Position numbers and translations under genes: made by a program. A stretch of 64,000 nt of DNA from Chrysoperla carnea (lineage: Eukaryota > Arthropoda > Insecta > Neuroptera > Chrysopidae): NCBI RefSeq assembly GCF_905475395.1, contig NC_058337.1:87166368-87230367 (forward strand). The letters are read 5' to 3'. The notes below the pieces were generated by a model that saw only the letters and a program-made list of their open reading frames with translations, made no database searches and had not been told where the DNA came from. Positions within the stretch are counted from its first letter, which is position 1; every line of letters starts with the position of its first letter. Shown one piece after another: positions 14,901 to 35,397 of the stretch.

Positions 14901-17900
14901 TGCTTAAACAATTGATCAGTTTTTTCTAAAAATTATACAAAGCTAGTGTTCCGGTAATTAAGAATTTTTAGGAAATTTCATCTGTTTAAAACTTTTTTAA
15001 TTTTCACTGTTTTCATTTTAAAGCTGTAAAAAGTGGCAGTATTTTTATTTTATTTGCTTGTAACTTTTAAACAATGAACAAAGAAAATGAACCAGATTTA
15101 TTAATTTCTTAATTGTAATAGTTCCGATTTTGATGACATTTTTAACCGACTTCAAACCAAAAAAAAAGAGGTTCTCAATTCGACTGTTTTTTTTTTTTGT
15201 AACCTCAGAACTTTCGACTGGGTGAACCGATTTTGATGATTCTTTATCTATTTGAAAGCTGGTGCTTCCTCCGTGGGATCCCATTTCATTTTGATCTAAT
15301 TCTGACAACGGCATCCATGAGAAAACCTCGCCAACCGATTTCGATTATTCTATTTTAGTGACAAATTAGTTACTTCAGATTCACTAAAATTCACAAAATA
15401 AAAAAAGCTTTTAACAAAAAGAAGAACCGACTTAAAAAAAAAAACTTGTCCAAACCAAATTAATATGCACTAAAAAGTAAAAAATAACGATAATATAATG
15501 CAGTTAAAATTATTGTTATTTTTGGAGTCGGTGTCAGCCAAGCTAATGTAGCAAACTGTTCTGTCAGAGTTATTTCCTTGGCTGACACCGACTCCAAAAA
15601 TAACAATGTTTTGTTTGTATGCTGAACCGTTTTTGAAATAGAGGGCGCAGAAGATGGTGCGCTCAGCTTAACATACTTCAGTGCTGGGTCAATATTTATA
15701 AATATAAGATATTCAATTATTATTTAAGTAGAATTCAATGAATAATTATGGAAAAAAACCGCAAAATAAACTGGTATTAATGAATTTTTCAGACTTTCAT
15801 GAAAGAAAAGTCCTTGTAACGCCGAGTATGAAAATTATCGTAAAGTATTACCTTTACAACAGCCTTGCAAATTTTCAACTGTTTTGAAATGATTGTTAAA
15901 TGTTAGTTTTAACCTTAGACCTAATTAATATATGTAGAATATATAAATGTTTATTATTTGTTTACTATTTTGATAAACAAACAAAAGTGAGAAAATTTGT
16001 TATTGTTGATTGAGTTAATGAACGCATGAAGATACCACGTGATACCTTCATGTATTGTCTCCATTAATATCTTAAGAACGTTTACCTATTTGACAAGGTT
16101 TTCATGAAAGCAAACATTATGATGTTTATTGTTTATAAACGTAACATCGCATCACATCGATCAATATTGTATGAGAGAGCCCACATGTTTTAGCCAATTC
16201 AAATCATGAATTTGGGTCAAACACCAGAAATATGGAATTTGTTTATAAAATATTCTAACACTAGAGTGATACCCACCCGCTTCGCTGGGTTTAAAAGTAA
16301 AGATTGAAAAAGATTGCTCTCGCTTATCCCTTTTCTATAACACTCGAAATAATGGTAAGGATTGTTTTACACATGTAAAATATATGTATGGTTTTCTATT
16401 TTTTTAAATGTATAATTGTCGTAATTATTCATTGAGTATATCAGAAAAGATGGTCGTGAAATATTTTATTTTGACTATTTTTACAGAAATCTGTAATTTA
16501 TGGTAATTTTAAATTATATTAATTTTTAAATTTATTAATATATCTTTATAAATTATAGCTCATGTGTTATTCTGAAGTATGAGCTATATTGCTGTACAGT
16601 TTCATTAAAAACCATTCGCTAGTTTTAAAATATAAAAATTCAAAAATTAGTCTCAGAAACGAAACACTAAAAACGGTCAAAGTTCGAAAAATTTGGACAG
16701 TAAGTCGGTTTTGAATGTGGTTTTCGGCATTCGATTCGTTAGACCGTTAGGAAATCGTCACCTAAATTTATTTATAAGAAACTAAAAATATGCAATTTGC
16801 ATAAATAATATGCATTTTATAATAGTACAGGAAAAATAGTATATTTTGGCACAAAATATGTACTATAATGAGACTTTATTAATTAACTTAATCTTGTCCC
16901 TAGAAATGAATATCTGCCGAGTTCTACCAAAATTTAGGCGTCCTATTCCGTCCCAGGGTGTATGAGCAGGGAGGAAACACACAGAAACTATTAATTAATT
17001 TAAAAAAAATTCAAATAGAAGATGAATTTTCTATAATTTTTTTCTTTCTTCGAGAATGTTTTACAAGACCACTAGTTGAAGCTACGTGCAAATTTTCAAC
17101 TCCCTATCTTTTATAGTTTTGGAGAAAATGGACACATTTTGTCCCCTCAAGAGTTGTTAATTTTTCTACAAGGAATAACTTATTTATCTAATAACTTTTG
17201 TTCTACTTCTAATGGTTTAAAAGATGGATCATTTTTCATTTGATTGAATGAGCAAAAAAATTGGCATATCTCGGTCAATTCTGTGGATGGGGAAATGACA
17301 TAGAAACCGTAAATTTGATCTGAACTTGTAAGGTCATTTAAAAATCAACTGATGCTATGAATTGATCTTGAAGACCAATTAACAGGTCCATTACGTGAAA
17401 TTATTGATAAAATTTATACAAATTTGAATGATACGAGCGTAAAATGGACGATTTGCACGATGAGTATCGTGAACAGTTTTCGATTTTTTTGATAAACAGT
17501 TTGACATTCTGGTTTAATTCAAATAGAAAGGCATCTTGTAAAATTTTTTAAAAACCTTTAGTTTTTGTGAGAAAAATTGGCAAAGCTCAACCGTAGCTCG
17601 AAAATTACTCGTTAAAAAGCTCGAAAACTATTGGATTAGAAAAAATTTCACAGAAAGCCATTTTCCTATCTAATATTGCGGGGTCCTTTCCAAATTCTTA
17701 AAAAGAAAAGCAGAACCCATGATCCCAAATGATAAGTGCACCTCGTTCCTTTTATTGTACATATTTTTATTTAGACTTAATTTTTATTTAGACATCTTAC
17801 ATTCGACAGTAAGAAATATTTCGATTTACGATCTCCTTAATGTTTTTATTCTGGACCCGTTTCTGGTTAATTTAATATGACAAATTTTGAAAACAGATTA

Positions 17901-20900
17901 TTACTCCTTCGAAATATAAAGTAATGAACATTTTATTTTATCAAACTGTGAAAAAATTATTTTAATACGCCTTTCAACCCACAGCGTTCTTTACGGGAGT
18001 CAATCTCCAGCTACGTCCTTGTATTAAATAGAAACGAGTAAGTCGAGCATAAAATTTAGTGACATACATTTTGTTAGCTATTTTGTTTAATAAACATTAA
18101 ATTATACAAATCTCTTAATATAAAAATCTTATATACTGTTGTGTTTTAATGTCCGATGTGATATAATCTCCAAACACTATAAAATTTATAATCCAATCAT
18201 CTTAGAATTTCACCTCGGAATCTAACGGAATAAGTTGAATTTTTGTCAAACCTTTATTTTAATAGTACAAATGTTGTCACAATTGATCACGCGTTCGCGT
18301 TCTTTGATATTCAAAGTCAAAGGTCACGAAAATCAGTTTTTTGTGAATATCTCGTTTATTTTGCCTTCAATCGTATTAACATTAATTATAAAAGTTGTAG
18401 AAGATAAAATTTTCTACAAATTTTGTTTTGAAACTTTCAAAAAACTTTTTTGAAATAGAAGGGGCAGAAGATGGCGAGCTAAGCTTAACGTACTTCAGTG
18501 CTGGGTCACTATTTATAACTATAAGGTATTAAATAATTATTTAAGTAGTATTTAATGAACAATTAAGGAAAAAAACCGCAAAATAGACTGGGATTAATAT
18601 TTAATACCTTATATTTAAATAATTAATAATTATTTAATACCTTATATTTATAAATATTGACCCTGAGCACTCCATCTTCTGCACCCTCTATTTTCAAAAC
18701 GGCCCAAAAATTGTTTGTTTTTTTTTTTTTTTTTTTTTATGAGGCTCAACTTTCTAATTTAAAGTGTTATTCTATCCCTTACCCTTTAGGATCTAAAGCT
18801 ATTAAAAAAACCGGAAAACTAGGTCCAATTTAATGTCAGAACATCAAACTTTGTAACTTTTGTTTAAGTTACTTTTTGATTGATTAAGTACAAGACAAGT
18901 TATTTAGGTATATAGATTAAATTGGCCCACCCAGTATAAACACATATACATGTATGTATCAGCTTTAACAACATCGACATATCAGCTATAGCGACCAACG
19001 AAAAAAAACACATTTTTTTAAGTATGTGTAGTGCCACAAAATATCTGATAATAGATAGTGTTGCAATACTTATTTTTATACCATGCATATATGTAATATG
19101 CAAGGTATACTAAGTTTAGTCCCAAGTTTGTAACGCTTAAAAATATTGATGCTATGAACAAAATTTTGGTATAGGTGTTCATAAAATCACCTAATTAGTC
19201 CATTTCCGCTTGTTCGTCCGTCTGTGGGCACGATAACTCAAAAACGAAAAAAGATATCAAACTGAAATTTTTACAGCGTACGCAGGATGTAAAAAGTGAG
19301 GTCGAGTTCACTGTTTACCCGTGAGGGCGCAAATTAGGCGTAAATTGTGTAGTATGCATTATATAAATTGTATATGTATGTGCAATGTGATAGAGTAATC
19401 AACACTATTTATGCATGGTATTTCAACAATTAACTCAGTCAATTGTTTGTTTTCACTTGTTTTATTATGAAACTAATTTTTACATTTATTTCAAATTTTT
19501 TTTTTACTTTATACAAGTCAAAGTTCTCTTATACATTATATTTTTAATAACTTTTTTTATCTTAACACATTATACCATTTAATATATGAGGGTTAGACTG
19601 TACATACACTTCAATGGCAAACGTACATTCGAATTTCCATTTGCACAAATAAAAAGTAACAAAAAAATTACCCAGATGTAACGTTTTAACCTTTGAATCT
19701 TAAAAAATTTATTTTTATCCTTATATTTTGAACTTACAATCACATATCGGTTATAGTGATCAATAAAATAAGTCAGAAATAACGACTAACATGTGTACAT
19801 GCTTTCACTTTATAACGACAATGATTGTCGAGCTATTCAATGTGATTTTGACTAGCCCAAAATGTATCATTAAAAAGATATCAGGGAAAGATGAAAACAG
19901 AGAATGATTTTTCAACAGGTTATCTATCTTATTTTTATTTAATACAATTCTTACATAAATTTTAAAAATAACTGAAAAATTTATGTAGTAAAATAAATAT
20001 AGAATAATTTTTATCGAATTATTAAAATTTTGAATTAAATTCTTTTTTTAGGAAGTGGCAGTTAAAGTGGAGCCGTTGCAAGCACGACATCCTCAACTAT
20101 TATACGAAAGCAAATTGTATAAAATTCTTCATGGAGGTGTGGGGATACCCCATATTAGGTAAATACATTTATTTGAAATATTCATTTCATATTTTCACGC
20201 ATTTCATTTTAATATAAAAACGATTCCTTCCGTGACATTCATTCTACTGGTTATAAATGTTATTGACTTTTTATTCAAATATGTTATTCATTATTTATTG
20301 TATTCTGTTTCGTTCAGAAAATATTTTGTATGATGCGTACAAGAATTGGAAAAATCGTAAATTTAGTAATTGGTAGTTTTCGATCAAATTTTGATTCTCA
20401 AGTTACTTTTTAATTTTCACTTGCTTAGAACTTATGTTAGAGAAACAATTTCTTCATTCCATTCATAAAATATGTCATACAAAATTTCGTTTTTGAATCA
20501 ACCCCTTTCCCGTACCCCGCTGCGTTACATTATCTCAGTCGCCAACAAACAAACCAACAAACTAAAAAAATCTGTGATATATTTGACAATGAACTGCGAA
20601 TATCACGTTTCTTTAAATCCCCTCCCACCACAGTTGCATTTAGTCAAAATAAATGAAACCCCCCTCCCTCCCACCAGTTTGTGCACACCTTATTTCATGA
20701 ATGGCAATGACTCATGGACTCATGAAACAAACCTTCTTATATACTCAAATATTTATGATTAATAAACTAAGATAGAAAAGTTCGAAGCAATTACGTTAAG
20801 ATAAATTCGAAATTAACTTTCTTTTGGAAATGGTCTAAATTTACGATCCATTTTTTCTTTTATTATTTCCAGCCGAAACCACGCTTCCGAAAAATTTTCT

Positions 20901-23900
20901 AATATCTCTAATAATAATGTTAATAATAACAGAAATCCTTTAAAATGTTTGTCTAATATTTAATTTATACTCAATAATTATATTTTATTTAAACAATTTC
21001 TTAATATAAACAAGTTTTGAAGGTAATGAATACATGAATACTTGAGCTACTATAGCACTGTAGTTGAAAATTATAATCAAAGAGCCAACAATTATATGAT
21101 GAGGATATTTTTACTATCCTTTAGTAAAATTGCATTTATTTGATGTATACGCTTACTTTTATTGAAATTAATTTTCATACCATGTATATGAAATATACCA
21201 AGGTATACTAAGTTTAGTCTCAAGTTTGTAACGCTTAAAAATATTGATGCTATGAATAAAATTTTGACATAGGTGTTCATAAAATCACTTAATTAGTCCA
21301 TTTTCGGTTGTCTGTCTGTCGTCTGTCATCACGATTACTCAAAAACGAAAAGAGATATCAACCTAAAATTTTTTCAGCGTGCTAGGATTTAAAAAGTAAG
21401 GTCGAGGTCATAAATGAGCAACATAGGTCAATTGGGTTTTGTAAACCGTTAGAGATAGAACAAAAGTTTAAATGTAAAAAATCTTCCTTATAAAAAAATA
21501 AACAACTTTTGTTTAAAACATTTTTTCGTAAACATCACTGTTTACCCGTGAGAGCGCAAATTGTATAGTATGTATTATATGGGAATATCAGTTATATATG
21601 TGTGACATGTATGTATGTGTAATGTGACAGAGTAATCAACACTGTCTATACATGGTATTTCAACAAATAACTCAGTCAATTGTTGGTTTTCACTTGTTTT
21701 TCTATAAGTTTTCATGCTCTTTTGGAACTTTTTCAAAGGGAAAGTTCAATCACTTCTAAATTCGTGCACGATTTCAGTTTGAAGTGCTCTACATTTTTAA
21801 CTTCTATTTCCATTTTTGTAAAAATGTAAATAGGAGTGACTAACACTTAATATTTACAGTTCACTCTAAAGAACATCAACATACAATATTTGTGATTGAA
21901 ATATAAGACTGGTCATTCTACATTTTTCGGGCCAAAGCAAAGATACAGCAAACCAACACATGCAAAAAGTAGGAAATTTTCCGTAGAATTCAATACACTA
22001 TTGCACTATTTTTACCATTTTGAAGTAGGGAATCACATTGGAAATAGCCGCCAAAGTTGGTGGCAAAAGTCTTTTAGGTTTTTGAAAAAAAATATGTTTT
22101 GTATCAAAAAAAGTTTCGAATAATAAATGTGCAACTTTTTATTTCGGATCGATCTATTCCAGTTAGATGTCAAAAAATTAATCAAATAAACAATTTAATG
22201 GAAAAAAAAATTGATATTATTGGTGAGGTCTTAGTTATTGATGGAGGTAAAACTGTGCTACAAATTTTAAAATTGTTTCCAAACTATGCGCAAAATCTTT
22301 TTTTTAACGGTCATCCGGGGGGGGGGGGGGAGGTAAGTAAGATCAATTGAAGTGGAGGCCATAAAGCGGTGGTTTTTACTTTTAAGCCCAGTGAAGTGGG
22401 TGGGTATCAAGCTAGTATTTTATATAATAAACGTAAATAATAATATTGTATTGTTTTAAATCACTTGGAAGTATATACTATTTTTGGTAATGATATAAAA
22501 TTAAGTTATCAATGATTAATTTAAATAATACGACAGAGATATTATCAATATTTTTGTTTTATTTTAAATAAGTAATTTTGTTTATCATTATTTATGTGAA
22601 AATTTGTAAAGATTAAAACGTTTTGTTTTTCATCCTTGAAAATCACTCAAATTTCAAATTTTAAATTTATTATTTATTTACTCGCTTTTGTGCATCAAAA
22701 TTGTTTGTTGATATTAGATATCCTGATGCTTTTGTTCTTTCTATCTGAGATATTGAATCTGTTTTTCTTCAAAGAGATATTTTATGGGCACAAATAATCT
22801 TTCGCTAATAACGTTTCTCATGTAGTCAATGCATCCCACGACAATTTCCATTAGGTACCTGATTGTATTGAACAACAAAATTTCATTTTGAGCTGAAAAT
22901 TGCTCGATATCATCATTTTCGAAAAATTCGATACAAAATAACTCCTTTTAACCTATATTGGATGTGATGCACATTAGGAAGAATTTTTTTTTCTTTGGTG
23001 CAATTTATGCCATTAAATGATAATAATTCCCTCTCAAAAATTTGGATTCAGCGCATCAAAAACCTTCGGAAAAGTAAACTCACGTTTCTCCACTATATAT
23101 ATTGTCACAAACGTTGAGGTTTGGTAAAAATTATCAAAATTTAAAAAAATATACGATTTTGTTTTTGGTTAAATAAAAGAAATGTGGGGTTCGGTAGGAT
23201 ATTTCTGTCCCACTTTATGGGTTTAAATCGAGAAAGCATAAGTTCGTATGAATTTTGTTGAGTACACTCAGACAAACATTTTCCACCTACTCTCATAAAA
23301 ATCTACTGGCGATGAATCGATTCAAATACCTTATTTCCTAGATTAAAGTGCTTACAATAAAATAATAGCCTAAAAAAATCATCAGTTTTTTTCTTTGTTT
23401 ACTCCACATTCTTTTCCTTTGTTTATTCAATAAACCCGAAAAAGTTCCTACATACTTGCTGGAAATTATATGTTTTTAACATCTTAGCTATTGCATACCT
23501 ATATATTTTAAACTAAAGGTGATTTTTCTTTTTAGATATTTTGGAACAGAACGAGAATATAATGTATTAGTTATGGATTTATTAGGACCTTCACTGGAAG
23601 ATTTATTTAACTTTTGTGCACGTCGATTTACAACAAAAACAGTTTTAATGCTTGCTGATCAAACAATTTCACGTATTGAATATGTTCACTGTAAAAACTT
23701 TATACATCGTGATATAAAACCTGATAATTTTTTGATGGGCATTGGACGTCATTGTAACAAAATATTTCTAATTGATTTTGGTTTAGCTAAAAAATTCCGT
23801 GATTCACGTACTCGAATGCATATCCGATATAGGGAGGATAAAAATTTAACTGGCACAGCACGATATGCGTCAATAAATGCACATCTGGGTATTGAACAGA

Positions 23901-25258
23901 GCCGTCGTGATGATATGGAATCACTTGGTTATGTATTGATGTATTTTAATAGAGGCTGCTTGCCGTGGCAAGGTTTAAAAGCAGCCACCAAAAAACAAAA
24001 GTATGAAAAAATTAGTGAGAAAAAAATGTCAACACCGGTTGAAGTATTGTGTAAGGTAACTTGATTTTTTTTATTAATTGTTTTTACTGCTTTTCAAAAT
24101 AAAATAGGTGCATGTTTAGTTTTGATATTTTATCAAGGTGAGTTTTTTAACAATTAGATTACTACTTTGAAATACATAGTTTACTATCAAAATAGTAATT
24201 GAATTTTTCAAATGATTCGACTGCTAAAAAAAAAACTTAGGCTCTGTTAAATCATAGAAAAATATATCTCTGTGATCACTATAAGAATGCTTTAACCCCA
24301 CTCATTCAGATTAATAAAGGAAAAGGCCTATTGATGTTTTTATTTTCTAAACACTTCTCAATATGTAATTGTATAAATTCCATATTGAGAAGCTCCACCA
24401 TAGGACAGTCTCTATGATAATATTAAAGCCAAAATTTCAGAACATAAATAACGACAAAATTTATCAAAATGTCAGCGAATTTTCTCTCAATTATAATATT
24501 TCCTTTAATTTGGAAAAGGGATTACTAATGGAAACTGTAAAAATAGTTTAAAATGCCCTTATTGAGCTTTCATCTTTATATTGTTCGTAATAAAGATGGC
24601 AAAAAATAATTTCATTATTTATATATTGACATTTGATATTTTGAAATAAGAACTCTGTCTACCTGTAAATCCAGCGGTGGATATCGATGCTTTTTTTGTT
24701 ATTAACATTACTCGAAACCGAACAATATCGATAGTTTGTAGTTCAAATACTTCATATCATATTCATATACAACACTTGTTATTATGTTTTGCAAACTAAG
24801 TACATGCAAAATCTCTTTCATCCATTTTATCAAAAAGAATCTTTTTATAATTGCCTCCAAACTAAGCCACGTTCCTTTATGGATATCAGTTGTAAGCTAC
24901 TCATTATGATACATATCAGTATTGAAATAATGATTTTACTAATGGAACACAAGTGTATAATTTTTTTTCTCTTAACAAAAAATAACAGGGTTTCCCAGCC
25001 GAATTTGGAATGTACTTGAATTATTGTCGTGGTTTACGATTCGATGAAGCGCCAGATTATATGTATTTACGACAATTATTTAGAATTCTATTCCGTACAT
25101 TAAATCATCAATATGATTATACATTCGATTGGACGATACTAAAACAAAAAGCAGCTACATTATCATCGAATATCACAACTGGCACACAAGCACAGACATC
25201 ACAAGGTGTGACCCAACAAGCAGGTACGTCCGCAACCAACTGTAATCCACCATTGTAA
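8983..25258 (+). CDS. CkIalpha: Casein kinase 1 alpha (4 exons, 338 aa)
   Basis: Serine/threonine kinase of the CK1 family, a priming kinase for beta-catenin/Armadillo and Ci/Gli in Wnt and Hedgehog signalling. Exons are 8983-9102, 20052-20158, 23536-24055 and 24989-25258, with GT-AG junctions. Exon 2 to 3 splits an Arg codon (AG|A). The sum is 338 codons plus TAA, against about 337 in human CK1 alpha. Visible motifs are the Gly loop [12 protein letters not shown] (exon 1), the VAVK lysine (residue 45), HRDIKPDN with catalytic Asp 135, IDFG with Asp 156, and the CK1-specific SIN (in [19 protein letters not shown]) in exon 3. [10 protein letters not shown] is in exon 4. The tail is short and Gln/Thr-rich, unlike the long tails of CK1 delta/epsilon and gamma. 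The vertebrate L-insert is absent. The ATG has A at -3 and G at +4. The first intron is 11 kb and full of repeats. In the activation segment the stretch before YREDKNL reads MHIR where human has QHIP. Confidence 0.96.
9103..10256. other. CK1 alpha intron 1, proximal part; nothing recognised
   Basis: AT-rich intron sequence. The open frames here (for example 9421-9669 minus, 9625-9810 plus) lack any domain and overlap on opposite strands, so they are treated as chance. Confidence 0.5.
10257..10894 (-). mobile_element. 5'-truncated non-LTR retrotransposon, RT C-terminal remnant
   Basis: On the minus strand the frame 10672-10364 encodes the C-terminal tail of an insect endonuclease/reverse-transcriptase polyprotein: [15 protein letters not shown], then [19 protein letters not shown]-x-x-x-TQDRN and [13 protein letters not shown]-stop. 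Upstream pieces of the same protein appear in other frames (a [15 protein letters not shown]-like part near 10680-10760, then [14 protein letters not shown]), so at least two frameshifts have occurred. The 3' tail after the stop holds CAGGCAGGCAGGCAG and GCGCCGAGAGTTAA and ends near 10257. A second copy of this tail of about 80 bp lies at 10816-10894 in the same orientation. A dead fragment inside CK1 alpha intron 1. The clade is not resolved. Confidence 0.8.
10774..10814. repeat. Perfect 19-bp palindrome at the retrotransposon junction
   Basis: Arms 10774-10792 and 10796-10814 are exact reverse complements around a 3-nt loop (CGA). The hairpin sits exactly between the truncated reverse-transcriptase fragment and the second copy of its 3' tail. 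Confidence 0.85.
11246..11625 (+). mobile_element. Non-autonomous Helitron copy 1
   Basis: Begins TCCCTATATATTATAAATG, continues with GAAAGTAAGAATG and TTTG repeats, and ends in a GAAGCGAG block followed by GCTAG. It has 5' TC and 3' CTAG, flanked by A (11245) and T (11626), the standard Helitron insertion context. No Rep/helicase frame is present. Shares its 3' half with the copies at 16261 and 22230. Confidence 0.7.
12437..12451 (+). repeat. 15-nt C run
   Basis: Homopolymer of 15 C, unusual in this AT-rich intron. A 12-C run lies at 13748-13759 next to a related repeat. Confidence 0.9.
12547..13990 (+). repeat. Direct repeat pair flanking a Helitron
   Basis: A block of about 70 bp at 12547-12615 (AAGCCTCGTTTAATGGAGTA, ending in a CGCACTGT-like motif) recurs at 13922-13990 (AAGCCTCGTTTACTGGAGTA, ending in GCACTGT) in the same orientation. 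Each copy follows a C run. The Helitron at 12841-13322 lies between them. Two copies of an unidentified repeat. Confidence 0.55.
12841..13322 (+). mobile_element. Non-autonomous Helitron copy 2
   Basis: Begins TCCTGTTACTATTATAATCG and ends GGCGGATAACTGCTAG, with A before (12840) and T after (13323). The internal sequence (TTTGTTACGATTTCACGC, then AAAAACTATTGAACTG) matches the insect Helitron-like pattern seen in copy 1. The 3' end carries GAAGCGGGCGG, as in the other copies. 482 bp with no coding capacity. Confidence 0.7.
14304..14894 (+). mobile_element. ATACCATG MITE family, copy A
   Basis: Fullest copy of a dispersed element. It starts ATACCATGTATATATTATG and has conserved blocks AAGTTTGTAACGCTTAAAAA, TCACCTAATTAGTCCATTTC, CGATAACTCAAAAACGAAAA and TAAACATCACTGTTT. 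It ends with ATACATGGTAT (reverse of the start) followed by CAACAATTAACTCAGTCAAT and TTTTCACTTGTTTT. Non-coding, inside CK1 alpha intron 1. Confidence 0.75.
15139..15485 (+). repeat. TTTTAACCGAC dispersed repeat, copy 1
   Basis: Starts TTTTTAACCGACTTCAAACC, continues with TCTCAATTCGACTG, a T run, ACCTCAGAACTTTCGACTGG and GTGAACCGATTTTGATGATT, and closes with AAATTAATATGCACTAAAAA. The same order of blocks recurs at 26065 and, truncated and inverted, at 3755. Non-coding; probably a non-autonomous transposon of a type widespread in insects. Confidence 0.7.
15512..15770. repeat. 31-bp perfect hairpin plus linked unit
   Basis: Arms 15512-15542 and 15577-15607 are exact reverse complements (core GAGTCGGTGTCAGCC) around a 34-nt loop. 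The following unit (about 15630-15770, with GAGGGCGCAGAAGATGG, ACTTCAGTGCTGGGTCA and GAAAAAAACCGCAAAATA) recurs at 18446-18600, where it forms one arm of a foldback. Confidence 0.75.
16261..16625 (-). mobile_element. Non-autonomous Helitron copy 3, 5'-truncated
   Basis: Reverse orientation. The plus strand begins CTAGAGTGATACCCACCCGC at 16261, the complement of the GCGGGTGGGTATCA...CTAG end of copies 1 and 4. The match runs to the block complementary to CAGCGAATGG...AATGAAACTGTA near 16600-16625 and stops there, so the TC end is missing. Confidence 0.6.
16626..18445. other. CK1 alpha intron 1, mid part; nothing recognised
   Basis: AT-rich intron sequence without a supported gene or clear repeat structure. 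The open frame at 18235-18453 runs into the foldback that follows and is treated as chance. Confidence 0.45.
18446..18701. repeat. Foldback element, about 250 bp
   Basis: Left arm about 18446-18545 and right arm about 18605-18701 are inverted copies. GGGCAGAAGATGG...GGGTCA...TTTATAA...TAAGGTATTAAATAATTATT on the left is answered by AATTATTTAATACCTTATAT...TGACCC...CCATCTTCTGCACCC on the right. The left-arm sequence is also present, without a partner, at 15630-15770. Confidence 0.7.
19078..19463 (+). mobile_element. ATACCATG MITE family, copy B
   Basis: Starts ATACCATGCATATATG and ends with GCATGGTATTTCAACAATTA then TTTTCACTTGTTTT. Carries the same internal blocks as copy A but lacks about 200 bp of the middle (no AACCGTTAGAGATAGAA block). 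Confidence 0.7.
21177..21700 (+). mobile_element. ATACCATG MITE family, copy C
   Basis: Starts ATACCATGTATATGAAATAT and ends ATACATGGTATTTCAACAAA then TTTTCACTTGTTTTT. All internal blocks of copy A are present, including AACCGTTAGAGATAGAAC and TAAACATCACTGTTTACCCG. Nearly full length, with small differences. Confidence 0.75.
22230..22415 (+). mobile_element. Helitron 3' fragment, copy 4
   Basis: Ends CAGTGAAGTGGGTGGGTATC then AAGCTAG (CTAG at 22412-22415, followed by T), matching copies 1 and 3. Upstream are the shared block TTTTTACTTTTAAGCCCAGT and a 14-nt G run (22317-22330), where copy 1 has a shorter G run. The 5' boundary is uncertain. Confidence 0.55.
24056..24988. other. CK1 alpha intron 3; nothing recognised
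   Basis: AT-rich intron of 933 bp ending in AAAAATAACAG. No repeat or exon stands out. Confidence 0.5.
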
Positions 25259-25752
25259 TTTATTCAATTCCTATTCAAAGATTTTCTTCAAAAAATTATT
25301 ATTATTATAACTTTGTAATTTTAATTTTTTTTAATTTTCTTGTTTTGGGTAATTAAAATTAATATAAAATAACACTGACAAACACTGTTTATATAATTAT
25401 ATAATATGAGAAATGAAAATGATCTCAGTACTCGATTCAGCAGTCAAGTCAGTCGTCAATCGCACGATACATCGTGTCTTTATCAATAATAATAATAATA
25501 ATAATAAATAAATAAATAAATAAAAATTGTGTTCTTACTTAAAAAGATAAAATATAGAAAAAAAATTAATATATGTGAACAATTGAAAAGAAAAAATTTC
25601 ACTTCATGAAATGATTAAATAAATTAATCGTTTCCATGATATTTTTATATAAAAACAAATTAAAATATTATTCTCTGTGCGTTGAGAAAGAGGACGATCA
25701 AGCTGGATGAAGGGAGGAGGGAGTTTTAAGGTAGTGAGGTGTGTAGATCATT

Positions 25753-25787
<35 letters not shown>

Positions 25788-26060
25788 AAATTAATAAAAA
25801 AATATACATACATCAGTGTAGACTTAAAAAAAATTGTTTATGCTGTTAATTATTATATTATGTATATTGTATGATGAACTGTTATTTGTAAAATCCTGGG
25901 TACATTCTGGGAACAATATTCTCCGAAACTTATAAATATAGTGAAAACAAATGAATTAATCATCCTTATCTTTATATATATATTGTAAAAGATTATTAAT
26001 TATATGTACCAATTTTTTTTTCTTAATCTTTAAATATGGAACTGTAATTTTGGAATTTGA
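25259..26060. other. CK1 alpha 3' flank with simple repeats
   Basis: Contains AAT/AAAT microsatellites at about 25487-25525 that supply several AATAAA hexamers and so candidate poly(A) signals for CK1 alpha. A TATATA tract lies at about 25753-25788. No coding sequence. Confidence 0.6.
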
Positions 26061-26410
26061 TTTTTTTTAACCGACATCAAACTAAAAAGAGGCGGTTCTC
26101 GATTCGACTGTATTTTTTTAATGTTTGTTACCTCAGAACTTTTGAATGGGTGAACTGATTTTGATAATTCTTTTTCTATTAAAAGATGGTGCCCCCCATT
26201 TGCTCGCGTTTCAAATTTATCCAGTTCTAACAACACCCTTTTCGTATTCGACAAGGAGAAATAAGAAAACCATATAAGTCTTGAATAATTCAATATCGCG
26301 CCAATCGATTTCGATTATTCTTTTTTTAATGACAAATTAGTTAGTGTATCTCAGGTTCATTAAATAGAAAAAAAAACCATTACAAAACAAATTAATATGC
26401 ACTAAAAAGT
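26061..26410 (+). repeat. TTTTAACCGAC dispersed repeat, copy 2
   Basis: Same block order as copy 1: TTTTAACCGACATCAAAC, CTCGATTCGACTGTATTTTT, ACCTCAGAACTTTTGAATGG, GTGAACTGATTTTGATAATT and finally AAATTAATATGCACTAAAAA. Non-coding; the open frame on its minus strand (26030-26293) is a shadow. Confidence 0.7.
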
Positions 26411-26600
26411 AAAAAAATAATTGCGTATTCTTCTGAATAACAAACAATAATAATAATTTGATTGGCTTTTAAGTAGTCTAATATTTTTTATTTCATTTTA
26501 CTTCGGAGAATTCTAAAAAATATTTTGATTATTGTTTGTTATTCAGAAGAATAAGCAATTATTTTTTAAGTTCTTAGTGCATACTAATTTGCTTTGAAAT
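26391..26600. repeat. Foldback built from the end of the TTTTAACCGAC repeat
   Basis: The terminal block AATTAATATGCACTAAAAAG...ATAATTGC...ATTCTTCTGAATAACAAACAATAAT (26391-26452) is answered in inverted form at about 26535-26600 (ATTATTGTTTGTTATTCAGAAGAAT...GCAATTATTTTTTAAG...TTAGTGCATACTAATTTG). Arms are about 62 bp with a loop of about 85 bp. Confidence 0.7.
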
Positions 26601-27214
26601 AGTTCAATATTTAATAAGAAAATCAATACAATTTTAATTGAAAACGATTTTAGTTGATTTTTTGTTCTTCGATGAAGTTAATCAGTTTTAGGAGTACATT
26701 ATAGCGTATAGGATTTATACATAATAGGGAATATTCATGAATTTTTTTTTTTTTAATATTTTTAATTCGTTGTTTATACCGTTATATTATAGTAAAAAAT
26801 TAAATACTGTTTAAAAAGGCTGTAATTAAGTGTAAAAAAAATTTCAAATAGAGAATAATTTTCAGATGTTTAAACGCAGTCCTTTAGGTGCTCTCTGTTG
26901 ATGACGTATTAATATGTGATCTGTCTATTGGTGACAGTTCAATGTATAATTTACACTTTAAAAAATGAATTTACAACACAGATTTTACGCAAGTTATTAT
27001 AAGTTTTCTAATAAAAAGTAGAATAATATAACTCAATGTAATACCATACAAAATATAAGTAATTAATACCATATAGTATGTCAACAAATCTGACAAGCCA
27101 ATACTATGACGTCGCGTCCGTTTTAAAATTTGAATTTCCGTTTAAGAAATTTGAATTTCTCTCACTGAAATTGTACTTTTATTAATTAATTTTAAGTTAT
27201 TAAAAATATATTAA
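26601..27214. other. Intergenic, left flank of piggyBac; nothing recognised
   Basis: AT-rich, no gene or repeat recognised. It ends with the TTAA target duplication at 27211-27214. Confidence 0.5.
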
Positions 27215-29838
27215 CCCTTTAGCTACTAGTGGTACTTATCAGTCCTGATTTTTACTACCTCTGAAACCCCAGCATGTGAAATAATGGAAATTTTTTGGTG
27301 CTGCTTGATGTTTTGATATCTCGAATAGTTTACGAATACGGATTTCTTTAAAAAATTCAAAAATTATTTACCAAACCGGAGATAAAATTTGGGTACTTCA
27401 AGGTACCACTAAGGGATTCATACAACAATAAAACTCAAATTATTTAAATTTCAAAAATAATTTAATATTTTCTTATTATAATCTTTAACAATCGAAATAA
27501 TTACCAATAAATAAATTAATCCTGGTGGTAATGAAGGAAACAATTTTTTTCCTTGTTACAGCATAAAAAAATTCCACAAGCTGAGCACTTTGAAAAAGGT
27601 CTTGATTGTATTCCATAACAGCGGCACTGTTCACACCTTCCTCTTTGATTCCCAAATCGTGCCCAATGAGCACCTCTATTACTTAGTCGTAAGTCTTGAG
27701 ATACCGAATAATTATATTTTCTCTTTTGCGGACGATTACCATAGCTGATGCGTGAATTTGACAATCTTGATGTAGAAGGTAAAGTAGCACCTTTTACTGC
27801 TAGTCCATTTGTGACAGCTCTACGAAACTCCAACACGCTCATTTTAGTTCGAGCTTGGCAATAAATTATATATGCATTTATCAAAGAAATTTCTATCATT
27901 CCAAAAAGTAAACGGTGCCACCATTTCTTAGATCTTCTGTCTAAATTATATAAACTGCGTAGATGATCGGCTCGATCGACACCACCCATAAATTTTCCAT
28001 AATCGCATATTACTTCGGGACACTTTATTGGATGTTTTTCCCCTTTTTTATCTCTTCTTTCTACTGTAGTTTCTTTACTACCATTATAATTTGAGGCCAA
28101 GAGAACTGGTCGATTATCCATCCATTTACAGAATGTAATGCCTGTGTTACTTGTCTTGTGATCGAAATCGCCTCTTTTCATGTGCTTATCATTAATGGTA
28201 GGAGGAATACCTTTTCTATTTTGTCGTATAGTGCCGCAGGCGAAAGTTCCTTCAACTTTCAATTTTTCCAACAATCGTAACGATGTGAAGAAATTATCGA
28301 AATAAATAATTTTTTGTTTCCCCCAATGCTCTTCAGTCATTTCTAACACAACGCGTTCACCTAAATTGTAATTTTCAAATTTTTTGTCAACTTGACCGGT
28401 TTTCCCTTGATATACATCGAATTTCTTTACGAATCCACATTTATCCGCCAAGATCCATAACTTATAACCTCTTTTCACAGGTTTCATTGGATTATATTGT
28501 TTAATCGTGGATCTTCCTTTGAAAAGGATCATGGCTTCATCTACAGCCAGCTCTCTTGAACCATAGTAATAATGCTTAAATTGTTCGTTCAAAATGTCTA
28601 TCAAAGGCCTTACTTTGTATAGTTTATCATTACTATTTGTTATAAATGTATTGTCGTTGATATGAATATTGGAAAGTATCGTTTCAAATCGCGTCCGTGT
28701 CATAATATTCCTTACAAACGGAACGTCATAATCTTTATCGGTTGACCAATAATTTTTAATGGAAGGTAATTGGTGATACCCCATAAAAAAATTCAATGCA
28801 AAGAACGATAAAAGTTCATCTTCGGTAAGTTTTAAGTTTTTATTTTTTTGGGTGGCATATAAATTCGATTGGAAAGTTATGTGTTTTATTGCAGGACCCA
28901 TTACCTTTATAAAAAAATCAGTGGGTGTCTCACAATCGGAAATTTCGTCTAAATTTACACCTGCAAGAGAACAGAATTTCAATACATACTAAAATATTAT
29001 GATGGTTACCGTATACCTTCTGGCAAATAATAAGGACCAATATTCTTATCTTCTTCAATTTTTTTCCAAGTCCTGCATTCATGTAAAATATTTGTAATAT
29101 CTTGTAATGTAGATGGTACCGCAGGTCCCATTTCAATATCTAATTCTTCGTCTTCATTAAACATGTTATCTAAATTTCTTTCAAAAACATCCGTAAAGTG
29201 ATCAGTATTATTATCCTCCTCCTGTTCAAAATCATCCTCTTCATCGGTTTGTTCAGATAAATCGAATGGAATATCTTCTTCAAGTATTCTTATTAACTCA
29301 TCATCAGTCATAGCTCTATTTCTCGAACACATTTTCAATTACTGTACTAAAATCGATTTATTTCAAATACTATTTTATTGTTTCAAAATAATATCATAAC
29401 AATGCTTACAAAAGCATTGTACTTACTTAATGGTACTTACGAGTCCAGTTTATATTTTTTGATATTTAAAGATGAACAATTTAATAAAATAAAACTATTT
29501 TATACAGGCACATTCAAAACACATTAATTATTAATAAAAATCCACATATTTAATTAAAAATTCAAAATTATACCTGAATTTTGTTCGATAATTTACACTA
29601 AAATACGCAATTATAACCTTTGACAAGAACTGAGTCTCAATTAGTGTAAACATGCTGTTATTGCAAGTTTTTTCAAGTTTTTGAATCATAATCCGTATAA
29701 GAATACATTAAACTTTAAAGTACCACCAAAATATCTAGAAATAAATATTGTTAATAAGTTTTACAGAGAATTCAAATAGTCGGTACACTGAAGTACCACT
29801 AGTAGCTTCCTAGAGAAACAGTGTCGGTAGTTAAGGGG
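27215..29838 (-). mobile_element. Complete piggyBac-family transposon, 2.62 kb
   Basis: Flanked by TTAA on both sides (27211-27214 and 29839-29842), the invariant piggyBac target duplication. The left end reads CCCTTTAGCTACTAGTGGTA and the right end, reverse-complemented, CCCCTTAACTACCGACACTG; the outer 12 bp agree at 10 positions. The 16-bp block GCTACTAGTGGTACTT begins 7 bp from the left end. On the right it begins about 32 bp in. This asymmetric spacing is the known layout of piggyBac terminal and subterminal repeats. Inside is one uninterrupted (after splicing) transposase gene. Everything visible for mobility is present, so the insertion is probably recent. Confidence 0.9.
27516..29338 (-). 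CDS. piggyBac-family transposase (2 exons, 588 aa)
   Basis: DDE/D transposase for cut-and-paste movement of the surrounding element at TTAA sites. Exon 1 is 29338-29017 and exon 2 is 28960-27516, joined across a 56-nt intron (donor GTATAC, acceptor CTCTTGCAG). Splicing joins PEG to VNLDEIS in frame and gives 588 codons plus stop, the usual family length. The N terminus is acidic (DEEDDFEQEED). The piggyBac core follows, with candidate catalytic Asp 248 in LAVDEAM, Asp 329 in IIYFDNFFTS and Asp 436 in GGVDRADHLR, in the family order and spacing. The C terminus (about 550-585) is the Cys-rich zinc-binding domain (CEQCRCYG, CSACGIFLCC, CFLHYH) that binds terminal repeats. No stop or frameshift interrupts it. 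An intron in a piggyBac gene is uncommon but known. The ATG at 29338 is the first Met of the acidic region; a second Met is two codons in. Confidence 0.92.
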
Positions 29839-31489
29839 TTAATTACTAAAATAAAGGTTTAGTTGAAATGTCCAGCCAATAAAGTTAATGAAAAAAACAT
29901 TTGAACCAAAATTAAATTACATGAATATTCCCTATTCAGACAAGTCACGCTGGGGCAAGTTAAAAATATCATAATTTCTTTGAACTTCGTTATTAACTCG
30001 ATAAATGTAAAATAAAAACAATCGCAATAAAATTTGTAGAATGAAAACTGTTTTAGGCAACTCATAGTTTGACAAATGCGGTTAAAGCGCATGCTTTTTT
30101 GTTGTTGTTATAAACTTTGGTATCTTCTAATCTTCGTTTGTAAATTCAATTAAAGTATTTTTTTTTCGAAAATTTTTGACGTAAAAATTTGAAATGATAT
30201 TAAAATTAGCTCAATTTAAGAAAAGAATTAAATTTCGATGAAAGGGGATGAAATTCGTAACTAAGCATTCAACTATAAAATTCGAACAAATATGAGCCAA
30301 AAGTATTAAAAAGCTAAAAATCGCTTTTCTTTCGTTGCAATTTCAAAAGTACAATTTATTCGAAAGAAAAAAAAAATTGTCTATCAAGTAAAATAAAATG
30401 ATTGAAAATAATTATCAAAATGTAGTTGTCACTCACGTACAGAAAAATTACAATAAGTTCAACTATTGTACAAACTTTTATGGATTTTCTACACTTGTTA
30501 AATCTAAAGTTTTAAAAATGCTCTCTTTTGAAATATAATCTATCAAAATCCAAAGTCTTCAATTTTATAATTTTCACTTTTTCGATGTTCAAATAAAATT
30601 TGCGTTACATATTTCTTTGCATTAAATGTATAATGCCCTTATATCAATTATATACTTCATAATTATCTTTACATGAAACAAATTACAGTTGTTTAACAAA
30701 ATAAAGAATATTTATATATTGAAAAACAAAATTTGTAAAGAAAATTTATTTATGAAAAATTTTTATGATTGAATTTTAAAAAACAAAAATTAAGAAAAAC
30801 AGATTACATTTTTAAAACCATTTTGAACGTTGTGAGTACTAATTTAATTTTTCCACATTTTGAAAATACAAAATCACATAAAAAATTTATTGTATAAATA
30901 TTTTAAAAACAAATTATGTAAATTAAAACTAAAAAATGTATAAGTAATCAAATAATCAGTGATTTATATAATGATTATCAAAGATAATCAATAAGAACTC
31001 TTTAGATGTATGAAATTAAATTTTAATTTGCTTCAATTTCTAGATTATTTCATAAATACGCTACGTCAACAAACTTAGACTCACATTGTTTTCTAGTATA
31101 AAAAGAGTCTAGTAAAGCTCTCAGCCTTTTTCAATGAATTTTATGAACTTCTGATTAATAAAATACCACTTTAATTAAATAAGAAGGATTAGTATTTTAT
31201 TTTTTAAAACATAATTGAATTGTTTTTTAAATGTCTGCCTTAACGTTTGTGAGGTTGAAATTCTTATTTAGTTTTTACTCACTTAATACTGTTTTACAGC
31301 AGTTTTCAGAATTATCACACTAGATTACAAATTACCGTCATACTGCCAGTCTGCTAATATTTTTCTATAAAAGTACATATTGTAACAAGAAAATCGTACT
31401 TATTTAATCCGGCTAGTATCCACTTTTTTACTAGTTTACTTCAACCCCACACCCTTCGAAACCGCCACAAAATTTTGTCTGTCACTATT
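29839..31489. other. Intergenic; nothing recognised
   Basis: AT-rich, low complexity, no supported gene on either strand. Confidence 0.45.
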
Positions 31490-31496
31490 TTTCCTA

Positions 31497-31790
31497 GTTT
31501 ATCCCTTTCTTGCCTGGCGGTACTCTAAAGAACCGAATTTTTTTGCAGGCTGTGGCCCAATACCCGAATTCGGCGCGGTTGAAACAATACACTTTCAATC
31601 GCGTTTATGACATTAAAATCACTGTACTGTTATCAACTTCGATAAAATAATAAAATCTAGTTACTAAAGAATACATTTGAAAGTATCATTAAGAGTTTAA
31701 TGATAAAAAATTTAATATATAAGGAAAAATTTGGCTTTAAAATAGGGGTACTTTCGAGTGCCGTTAAGCAGCTACCGGCAAACTAGGTTG
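31497..31790. repeat. Possible short TIR element
   Basis: CCTAGTTT and a GGCGGTACTCTAAAGAACC block at 31497-31540 face GGTACTTTCGAGTGCCG and AAACTAGG at 31744-31785 in inverted orientation. About 17 of 23 positions agree in the inner block. No target duplication was seen. Weak candidate for a small inverted-repeat transposon. Confidence 0.35.
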
Positions 31791-33718
31791 TGGCAGGAAA
31801 AGGTTATAAAAAATGAATGCTTTGACTTACCGTTGCTTCCAGACTGTTAGGGTGCACATTTTTCCCTAGATTTTTACATCCTATCTCGAAAATGGCCGTT
31901 CTGTCATATATATGTCTTATGAGAGTAAATGCTCCACATCGACTCAAGAGTTTATTTATCACGCGACAGAAAGTTAGAGTACATAAATTCTTTGACGCTC
32001 CATATCCTAGAATATAGCTTTAGCTGTAAGTTCTTGGGCAGGGCTTAAAAAATTTATTATTTCATTTAAAACTAGTCTAAGAATATTCAAAATGTGTTTC
32101 TACAATGGCTAATGTTTTTCTTCCAAAATATTGGATGTAGAAATTAGAGCAAATTAAAATTGTTTTTTAATCAGTGATTTAATTAAAAAATACATAATAT
32201 TATTAAAAATAAAAAACAAAAAACAAATAATAAGTGTTTTTTGACACATCAATTTTTTATATTTTAATGCTGGTGTAGTGAGAAGAATAAACTATAATTA
32301 TTAAAGATAAATTTTTATATAAACCGCCTATATTTTCGATGTTATTTAATACAAACTTTTTTTTTGTGAAAATTTTTAACTATTCGAAAAAAGGAAAAAA
32401 TTTAACATGAAAATGTGTACATTTAGAATTATAAAGCTCAACAAAATATTTTGATAAATAAAATGAACAAAGATATTTATTTAAAACAGTATTAAATAAC
32501 CCGTCACCTTATTTTTGCTACTCCATCTAATGAATAAAAACAATCCTCTTCTTTATTTTAATTCTACATTTAAGTTTTTTACTTGGAAAATTGATCATTA
32601 AAAATAAACTTTTTCTCTCTTTCGCAGCATAACATGAATAAACAGCCAATTTAAGGTCTGTGTTCACGGTGTTTAAATATCGATTCAAACAAAATTACTC
32701 ATAATTGAATAATTTGAATCGTGTTTGTGACAACCAATGAATCGATTTTTACGAATTTTAGCATTGTGAATTCAGATTTTAATACTTAATTCAATTTTTT
32801 TGGATGGAGAAGCAGATTATAAATCAATATCATTGCTTTGTAATATTTCTAAATATTGAGTCAAATGTCTATTTAGACGTCGAATATATCAAATAAAAAA
32901 TATTTCCTCGTTTTGTAGTGACAAACCGCGATTCAGCGGACAACAAGACTTCATATAAACCTATAATCACTAATTCGAAGATCTCCAAAATCTCAGCAAG
33001 TCATTTATCAAAATCGAAATAAACATAAAAACAAATCTTATTTCGGTTGATCGAACAGAAATTTTTTTATTCAAATATATTTAAAGAAAAATCATTTTAA
33101 GAAAAACAAAAAACAATCCAAATGCAAGTAATACAAATTTGTTTTATTTTATTATTTTTCTTAACGTCCGTTTCGTGTGTTGATATTTTTATTTAAAAAA
33201 AAAGCAAACATTTTTTTTATGTCCTGTAAATATATTTTGTCTTTCTCATTAAAAAAATAATAAAAGAATAATTACATGAATGTTGTTTTTTTGTTAACAA
33301 GTAATTTTTTGTCATAAATCAGAATTTGTGTTGTTTTGAATTCAACTACCATTTGATCAAAATGAATCAATTTATAATTAACGAAATTAATTTACCCTAC
33401 TTTATTATGCTAAGCTCAGATGACAACATATTTATTAAAATTTGAGCAATTATACATAGATAAAACTGCTAATTTTCTTAACTTCGTATTACATTGGTGC
33501 TTTTAGGAGAGAAATCAGCAGGTTCAATATTAAAATATAAAAAACTTGTAGTTAATTTTATATTTTTCGATAATCTTATGTCAAATATTAGCTCATTGTA
33601 TAATATTGAGCATGGTTACAGGATACTCCGCGCAAAGGCTATTTATAAATTAAGTATCTGTTTGTACTTTTTCTGTTATCAATGTATGGGGTTATTAAAT
33701 TTACCGAGAGAACGTCTG

Positions 33719-33751
<33 letters not shown>

Positions 33752-34947
33752 AAGGTTGATCGTATTGGAGTATTTTGTAATCACGGTCGTTGTTTGATTT
33801 TTATGGTTTAAAGTCTGATTTACAATTGAAACTTAAGTTAAAATTCGTAAGACTTGGTATTGAATATATCGGGAATTAATTTAGTGAAATCCTGTTTTAC
33901 AATTGTAAATTTGGAAATCATAGGACGTTGGCGTAAATTATTTTAATCGTGAATTTAGTAAATAAAGCCAGTGCAAAAGTTTTTTGTACTAGTAATGAAA
34001 AGGTAAGGATTAATGATCCTGTACAATAATACTGTTTATCATAATCTAACAGTTAGTTGTAAAAGATTTAATTTGCGTCAAACTCAAATTTTTGTTGTTT
34101 AAATATGATGATAGAAGTGAGAAATTGAGTTAATTTGGTTTCAAAAACTTGGAAAGTTGCACTTTTCAAATTAATAGATAAGGAAGGTGTTTAGTATTCA
34201 ATTTCTGCCTTTTGGATTTAAAAAAATTGATTAGATGGGATGACAAAAACACTTTCACATTTAGTATAAAGGTAAGAATGTTATAACTGTAGCAGGTGAA
34301 GTAACTTGAGAAAACAAATCGAAATATGCAAGTAAACCAGTTTTTGAAACTTCTACGAATTAATCCTAGTGAATTATTCGAAATTGTAACATGCATTTTA
34401 AACCGAATTGGTACAGTGGTACACTGAATCAAAGCATTAATAGATTTTTATATTTGTGTTCATAATTTAAAAAAATGTATATGACTCAGAATTAACATAA
34501 GAAAATTTCAGTTTGATGAAAATTAGTCACTTTATAAACAATCATCTCTTGAGTTATAATTAATAAAATGCTTTAAAAAGAAACAATTAAAATATAAATT
34601 AATATCCACAAACTCGTTATTATCAAATTAATGAAATTATAAAATAATTTTTGAATAGTTAATTTATTTTGTTAAAATTATCAATCTATTGTCAAATTAT
34701 ATAGAATGGAAAATAGTATAAAACTTAAAATATCAAAAAAGATACTATATTGCAAAATCGAACTTCAGACGTTATGCCGTCCTGTCTAAAAATTTGCATA
34801 CATTTTACGATAATATCTATGTATACAATTGCCCCATCGAAAATTATGTAACGAAAATTTTGTGAATGATCATGTGAGTGTATGCTAAGTTTTATCAAAA
34901 ATGAAAATTAATGATATTTATTTCAAGTAATACAATTTTTGCATGTA
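31791..34947. other. Intergenic; nothing recognised except a poly-T run
   Basis: No supported gene. A 29-nt T run at 33719-33747 could be the poly(A) tail of a minus-strand retroposed copy, but no parent sequence is recognisable to its left. Open frames at 33494-33751 and 34166-34432 have no domain. Confidence 0.45.
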
Positions 34948-35043
34948 TGATGTACTGATTTTGTGGTCACTTGATTTATAGCAAACGAAAGTTTTTGATG
35001 TACTGATTTTGTGGTCACTTGATTTATAGCAAACGAAAGTTTT
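34948..35043 (+). repeat. 48-bp perfect tandem duplication
   Basis: Unit 34948-34995, beginning TGATGTACTGATTTTGTGGT and ending GCAAACGAAAGTTTT, is repeated without change at 34996-35043. The identity of the units implies a recent event. Confidence 0.9.
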
Positions 35044-35397
35044 TGACAAAAAAAATAATTTTTTGATCGACTAGTTGACATTCACCAGAATTCTAGAATT
35101 ATTATTTGCGTTAGATATTTAATGCATCAGATGAGAGAAATGGTTACTGCGGACATATTGTGTAAGCTACATTTCGCATTTCAAAATATTTTTAAGTCAG
35201 AAAAGAAACAAAATTTATTATTTTTTGTAAGCACTTGCAGACTCATGATGATAGTTACAACGTTGATTATTTAGGCGGGGCGACGACAAAGTGAGCGATC
35301 ATTTTTCAACCTTTGCGAAATTTGTTGGAGGCGCGATAAGTCGTTTTAATTTTTTTTTTTTTTTTTGTAATGGTACAGTAAATCTGGCATTTTGACT

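Follow-up and report, generated by a model that had tools for sequence, protein, structure and literature searches.

The lacewing Chrysoperla carnea carries, in the 64,000-nt stretch of DNA analysed here (hereafter the window; contig NC_058337.1, forward-strand positions 87,166,368 to 87,230,367, assembly GCF_905475395.1), what is very probably an autonomous copy of a DNA transposon of the piggyBac superfamily that has multiplied very recently in this species. The element measures 2,632 bp and occupies window positions 27211-29842, TTAA included. These coordinates agree exactly with those proposed in a first-pass annotation made from the letters alone, and the target-site duplication TTAA stands at 27211-27214 on the left and at 29839-29842 on the right. 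In the proposed cycle, a spliced transposase of 586 amino acids (aa) would bind the asymmetric ends, excise the element at TTAA by means of its DDD active site and allow its insertion into other TTAA sites. We infer splicing, protein activity and present-day movement from sequence, and consider mobility today likely. The transposon is of a known kind, and the predicted intron in its transposase is not claimed as new for piggyBac. It is of interest as a clear-cut candidate for natural piggyBac activity in a lacewing and for the near-identical copies that a very recent burst has left.

The evidence for this burst comes from a search of the Chrysoperla carnea assembly (337 contigs, 559.49 Mb) for other copies, a check that had been recommended in the annotation. 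The search returned 34 rows, nine of which represent eight young copies, while the other 25 are 65-93% alike and mostly partial. Six copies, including the one in the window, are identical over 2,632 bp. A seventh (L007; C and L numbers are our labels for contigs and loci) has one difference that changes Asp184 to Gly, and the eighth (C3:8851590-8856788) likewise has one difference and is split by a member of a second piggyBac family. TTAA was found on both sides of all seven complete copies, as well as at both outer sides of the split copy. When the nearest 60 nt on either side of L001-L007 were compared without gaps, no pair of flanks exceeded 50% identity, and the fetched loci contain no N. 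Because the eight copies are near-identical and their flanks, where compared, are unrelated, a very recent burst is supported, and so is recent activity. The copies are neither a diverged set sharing fixed differences nor a single conserved domesticated gene, the two patterns that the annotation had named as contrary to activity. At insect mutation rates of 2.8e-9 to 6e-9 per generation, which are not specific to Chrysoperla carnea, the two differences observed in 21,056 bp (9.5e-5 per site) would date the burst to about 16,000 to 34,000 generations ago; the upper bounds lie at about 50,000 to 107,000. For the piggyBac of Trichoplusia ni (T. ni), which has been called a recent entrant, a family divergence of about 0.17% is given (PMC5844692; papers are cited by PubMed Central number).

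The ends of the element are short terminal inverted repeats starting with CCC, CCCTTTAGCTAC on the left (27215-27226, plus strand) and CCCCTTAACTAC on the right (29827-29838, minus strand), with 10 of 12 bases identical. Close to both tips lies a 17-nt inner repeat, AGCTACTAGTGGTACTT, whose left (27221-27237, plus) and right (29791-29807, minus) copies are 100% complementary. The layout is asymmetric: counted from the respective tip, the repeat starts at base 7 on the left and at base 32 on the right; both the matching termini and the asymmetric repeats had been noticed in the first reading of the window. A 16-mer of the inner repeat had two matches in the window at up to three mismatches, against 0.21 expected; two of 100 shuffles also gave two matches, but the real pair is exact in both members and both lie near the ends of the element. 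The element contains the motif GGTACTT at five places, none of them coding, and the remainder of the window at eight. Two similar near-palindromes, GGTACTTCAAGGTACC (27392-27407) and, near the right end, GGTACACTGAAGTACC (29782-29797), are possible binding sites of the cysteine-rich domain by analogy with T. ni piggyBac, in which this domain binds a palindromic inner repeat (PMC7351741). The statement that such an end layout is required for piggyBac mobility applies to T. ni piggyBac when HT-1080 cells supply the native transposase. The superfamily as a whole follows no such rule, because a hyperactive enzyme relaxes the need (PMC7351741) and piggyBat of Myotis lucifugus lacks repeats that are as readily recognized (PMC11707139).

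The transposase is encoded on the minus strand, and here the first-pass annotation has to be amended. Instead of an uninterrupted frame of 588 aa, there is a 108-codon frame that starts with ATG and ends at a stop, followed by a second frame of 490 codons. Removal of a predicted 56-nt GT-AG intron in phase 1 (28961-29016, minus) joins exon 1 (29017-29332, with the ATG at 29332), which encodes an acidic N-terminal region, to exon 2 (27516-28960), which encodes the DDE core followed by a cysteine-rich tail, and yields 586 aa and a stop. Apart from the uninterrupted frame, the reading of the element as structurally complete is supported. The predicted intron is backed by a diverged relative at C6:9798876-9801002 (73% alike), in which GT...AG recurs at the corresponding position around a segment of another length; the intron region is 61% alike in the two sequences, compared with 70% and 77% in the exons. 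The alignment with piggyBat also spans the exon junction, but it begins just eight residues before it and is of low certainty there, giving weak support for the intron.

The spliced protein matches DDE_Tnp_1_7 (PF13843) with an E-value of 3e-95 over profile positions 2-349 of 349. The candidate catalytic residues of the earlier reading also hold: Asp246, Asp327 and Asp434 align with the catalytic triad D268/D346/D447 of T. ni piggyBac (PMC7351741), and the three columns are Asp in all 11 aligned lacewing piggyBac proteins, which were selected from 24 proteins in 15 groups. For the proposed Cys-rich domain, a C-terminal Cys/His pattern is present and aligned, whereas Pfam reported the DDE domain alone. 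A single-sequence structure prediction of exon 2 alone was useless (predicted local distance difference test score, pLDDT, 35.7) and was dropped. The relative at C6:9798876-9801002 is dead as judged from its reading frame, because it has frame-shifting gaps and in-frame stops. Since the ratio of nonsynonymous to synonymous substitution rates (dN/dS) between the element and this dead relative is 0.15 (bootstrap 0.10-0.20; 574 of 587 codons; dS about 1.2 and thus near saturation), the codon comparison shows that the transposase protein was under selection in the past of the two. Counting stops only, a frame of this length evolving without selection would remain open at 2% divergence with a probability of 0.13.

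Several observations weigh against an autonomous and recently multiplied element: the two tips have only 10 of 12 bases in common, the copy number is low (eight), and one copy carries the D184G exchange. A sub-case of the recent-burst interpretation is that the element is young but already silent, repressed for instance by PIWI-interacting RNAs (piRNAs) from copies caught in clusters. The position of two of the eight fresh copies at the edge of strand-biased transposon groups (see below) and the fact that one copy has already been broken by another insertion would fit this course of events, while the six copies that are still identical argue against it; we regard it as a serious contender, if somewhat less likely than not. 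A domesticated transposase gene retained by the host, which would be in line with the reading frame being intact after splicing, is contradicted by eight near-identical elements at different places, of which seven are complete and retain TTAA and both ends. Domestication was therefore rejected, and its likelihood is negligible. Copies arising from segmental duplication, gene conversion or assembly error would show the same high identity, but hardly the combination of TTAA boundaries in seven of seven complete copies, unrelated flanks and loci free of N, so that we consider an origin other than transposition very improbable.

While the multiplication is fresh, the first-pass proposal of a recent arrival is weakened by older relatives. 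Miniature relatives with a length of 263-314 bp, four of which were aligned (L033-L036), show 76-83% likeness to one another and have the same left and right end layout, with the outer TTAA partly decayed. Because these diverged sequences carry the same ends, they show that a lineage with this end layout, or a close one, was resident long before the present burst. The source of the burst may have been a revival of this resident lineage or a re-entry from outside. Viral contigs gave no pattern match to relatives of the element, and among bacterial and archaeal contigs seven pattern matches included zero relatives. Among the papers listed for piggyBac with Chrysoperla, or with Neuroptera and horizontal transfer, none deals with this element as judged from titles and abstract openings.

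The element that splits the eighth copy represents a second piggyBac family. It spans L031:3090-5652 (C3:8854089-8856651), has a length of 2,563 bp without its TTAA and an open frame of 666 codons, and sits at a TTAA at positions 138-141 of the first element. The other seven copies of the first family are in effect empty sites for this insertion. The second family itself has seven full-length or near full-length copies at 100% (rounded), with bit scores of 4605 to 4623.

Both families belong to a genome in which the sampled piggyBac loci are clustered and close neighbours mostly share the strand. A genome search with PF13843, in which a sample of 116 of 210 candidates was scored, gave 125 stretches that were merged into 97 loci. 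Twenty-four neighbouring pairs lie within 50 kb, against 1.8 expected if loci were uniformly placed, and C6, which by its size corresponds to the X chromosome, holds 32 of the 93 loci of the six large contigs on 7% of their length. Neighbours have the same strand in 23 of the 24 pairs within 50 kb (permutation mean 13.5; 0 of 20,000 reached 23), in 28 of 31 within 100 kb and in 36 of 43 within 300 kb; isolated loci, with no other piggyBac locus in the surrounding 50 kb, are on the plus strand in 33 of 60 cases. Groups of at least three loci are unanimous in five of five cases at a 50-kb gap, seven of eight at 100 kb and nine of 13 at 300 kb. The seven unanimous groups are located at C3:7.17-7.26, C3:8.785-8.856, C4:1.40-1.42, C6:0.776-0.834, C6:10.84-10.96, C6:12.78-12.93 and C6:18.71-18.82 Mb. 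The mixed group at 100 kb is C3:93.98-94.10 Mb, to which C1:11.89-12.15, C5:65.59-65.81 and C5:71.47-71.90 Mb are added at 300 kb.

This bias extends to hAT transposons, for which 150 of 1,204 candidates (PF05699) were scored. Where a hAT lies within 50 kb of a piggyBac locus, the two have the same strand in 13 of 14 cases (permutation p 0.0016), only C4:1431939 departing from this; three of the 14 adjoin one locus (C6:9.80 Mb), and hence not all are independent. Five of the seven unanimous groups also hold a hAT on the same strand, and the hATs inside these groups number five against 0.16 expected, all five on the group strand. As a control, pairs of neighbouring hATs with no piggyBac inside 300 kb have the same strand in 10 of 17 cases at up to 300 kb, four of nine at 100 kb and two of four at 50 kb, a control that is mostly at wider spacing and small at matched distance. 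Of 35 frames of at least 110 codons from 40 kb of cluster DNA, 10 were given to Pfam and five had a family. Matches on the group strand are DUF7869, a Spin-doc zinc finger (DUF4371 below cut-off) and a parvovirus NS1-like piece. The latter (L072:8204-8611; PF01057, 2.3e-8) lies in a transposon group and has the look of an endogenous viral remnant.

Two of the eight first-family copies stand at group edges (C3:8.85 and C6:18.71 Mb), with the transposase on the group strand in both; a gap of 100 kb has to be allowed before the copy at C6:18.71 Mb becomes part of its group. In the second family, unanimous groups at gaps of up to 100 kb include two of the seven copies, among them that nested in the first-family copy on C3; a third copy belongs to a group that forms at 300 kb, and two are in mixed groups. 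The groups were defined with the fresh copies in the list, hence no probability is given for their placement.

Transposons at these loci are mostly in one orientation, as in a unistrand piRNA cluster, and the groups are candidate clusters of this type. Against the bias stands a Gypsy-like element (L069:1768-6669), lying between identical 343-bp repeats, that has two frames on the opposite strand, its gag match being below cut-off. Tandem or local duplication as a cause would be in line with a 968-bp piece, 99.9% identical, that is common to C3:7.23 and C3:8.81 Mb (L056:1-967, L070:1543-2510), and with short tandem repeats. Its probability is reduced, however, by cluster pieces whose matches, leaving aside the fresh copies, are to different families and have identities of 32 to 68%, and by DNA comparison of nine stretches, covering part of the clusters, in which similarity was mainly at transposon level. 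The groups may also lie inside introns of long genes, where transposons tend to be antisense. In Drosophila, where Gypsy elements drive the bias, accumulation in one direction has been read as a hint of a unistrand piRNA cluster (PMC10643416). In uni-strand clusters of T. ni, the antisense orientation accounts for 57.1% of the insertions and for 79.7% of the transposon nucleotides (PMC5844692), and in a review uni-strand clusters are described as dominant in the soma of flies and in other insects, and DNA transposons as part of the content in a beetle (PMC9962485). Because of these precedents the idea of unistrand clusters is already known, whereas the strength of the bias and its carriage by DNA transposons would be notable. 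We tentatively suggest, as a reading slightly less likely than not, that several unistrand transposon-trap loci, many of them on the X chromosome, keep piggyBac and hAT one way round, in place of the Gypsy elements of flamenco, and that the piggyBac bursts have been caught in the middle of trapping. If the clusters make piRNAs, they would allow a test of how a genome catches a DNA transposon in mid-spread and of the order of insertion and silencing.

Elsewhere in the window, a 104-codon frame at 10364-10678 (minus) without a Pfam match contains a motif resembling the end of a non-LTR (long terminal repeat) retrotransposon protein. Two further minus-strand frames, 15045-15344 and 26030-26314, neither with a Pfam match, are probably two copies of an unnamed repeat, because a peptide pattern seen by eye is common to both. 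A 48-bp unit is repeated 2.1 times with 100% match at 34948-35046. Searches of the window gave no Rfam hit at gathering scores and no tRNA.

In comparison with known systems, the tips of T. ni piggyBac also start with CCC, while the letters and spacing of its inner repeat differ from those of the lacewing element. Both have TTAA, an asymmetric inner repeat and the DDD triad in common (PDB 6x67/6x68; PMC7351741), but T. ni piggyBac has a single frame of 594 aa where the lacewing frame is split. It is also the more distant match (5.6e-25), and its alignment stops short of the tail. The best match among solved structures is piggyBat (PDB 9c0f; 6.8e-45), aligned over residues 98-584 including the tail. 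The tail of the element, assigned by eye, resembles the arrangement described for Pgm, piggyBat and PLE-wu, in which Cys/His residues come after an upstream His (PMC8086355). Whereas piggyBat is described as having a single 572-aa frame and lacking easily recognizable piggyBac inner repeats (PMC11707139), the inner repeats of the lacewing element are clear and its frame is predicted to hold an intron. The recently active piggyBacs known from beetles and from small animal genomes have a similar length, CCCTTT-type tips and TTAA (PMC12732532, PMC10813416), and near-zero divergence among copies is likewise reported in beetles (PMC12732532). These two surveys describe single reading frames (PMC12732532, PMC10813416), whereas the frame of the lacewing element is split.

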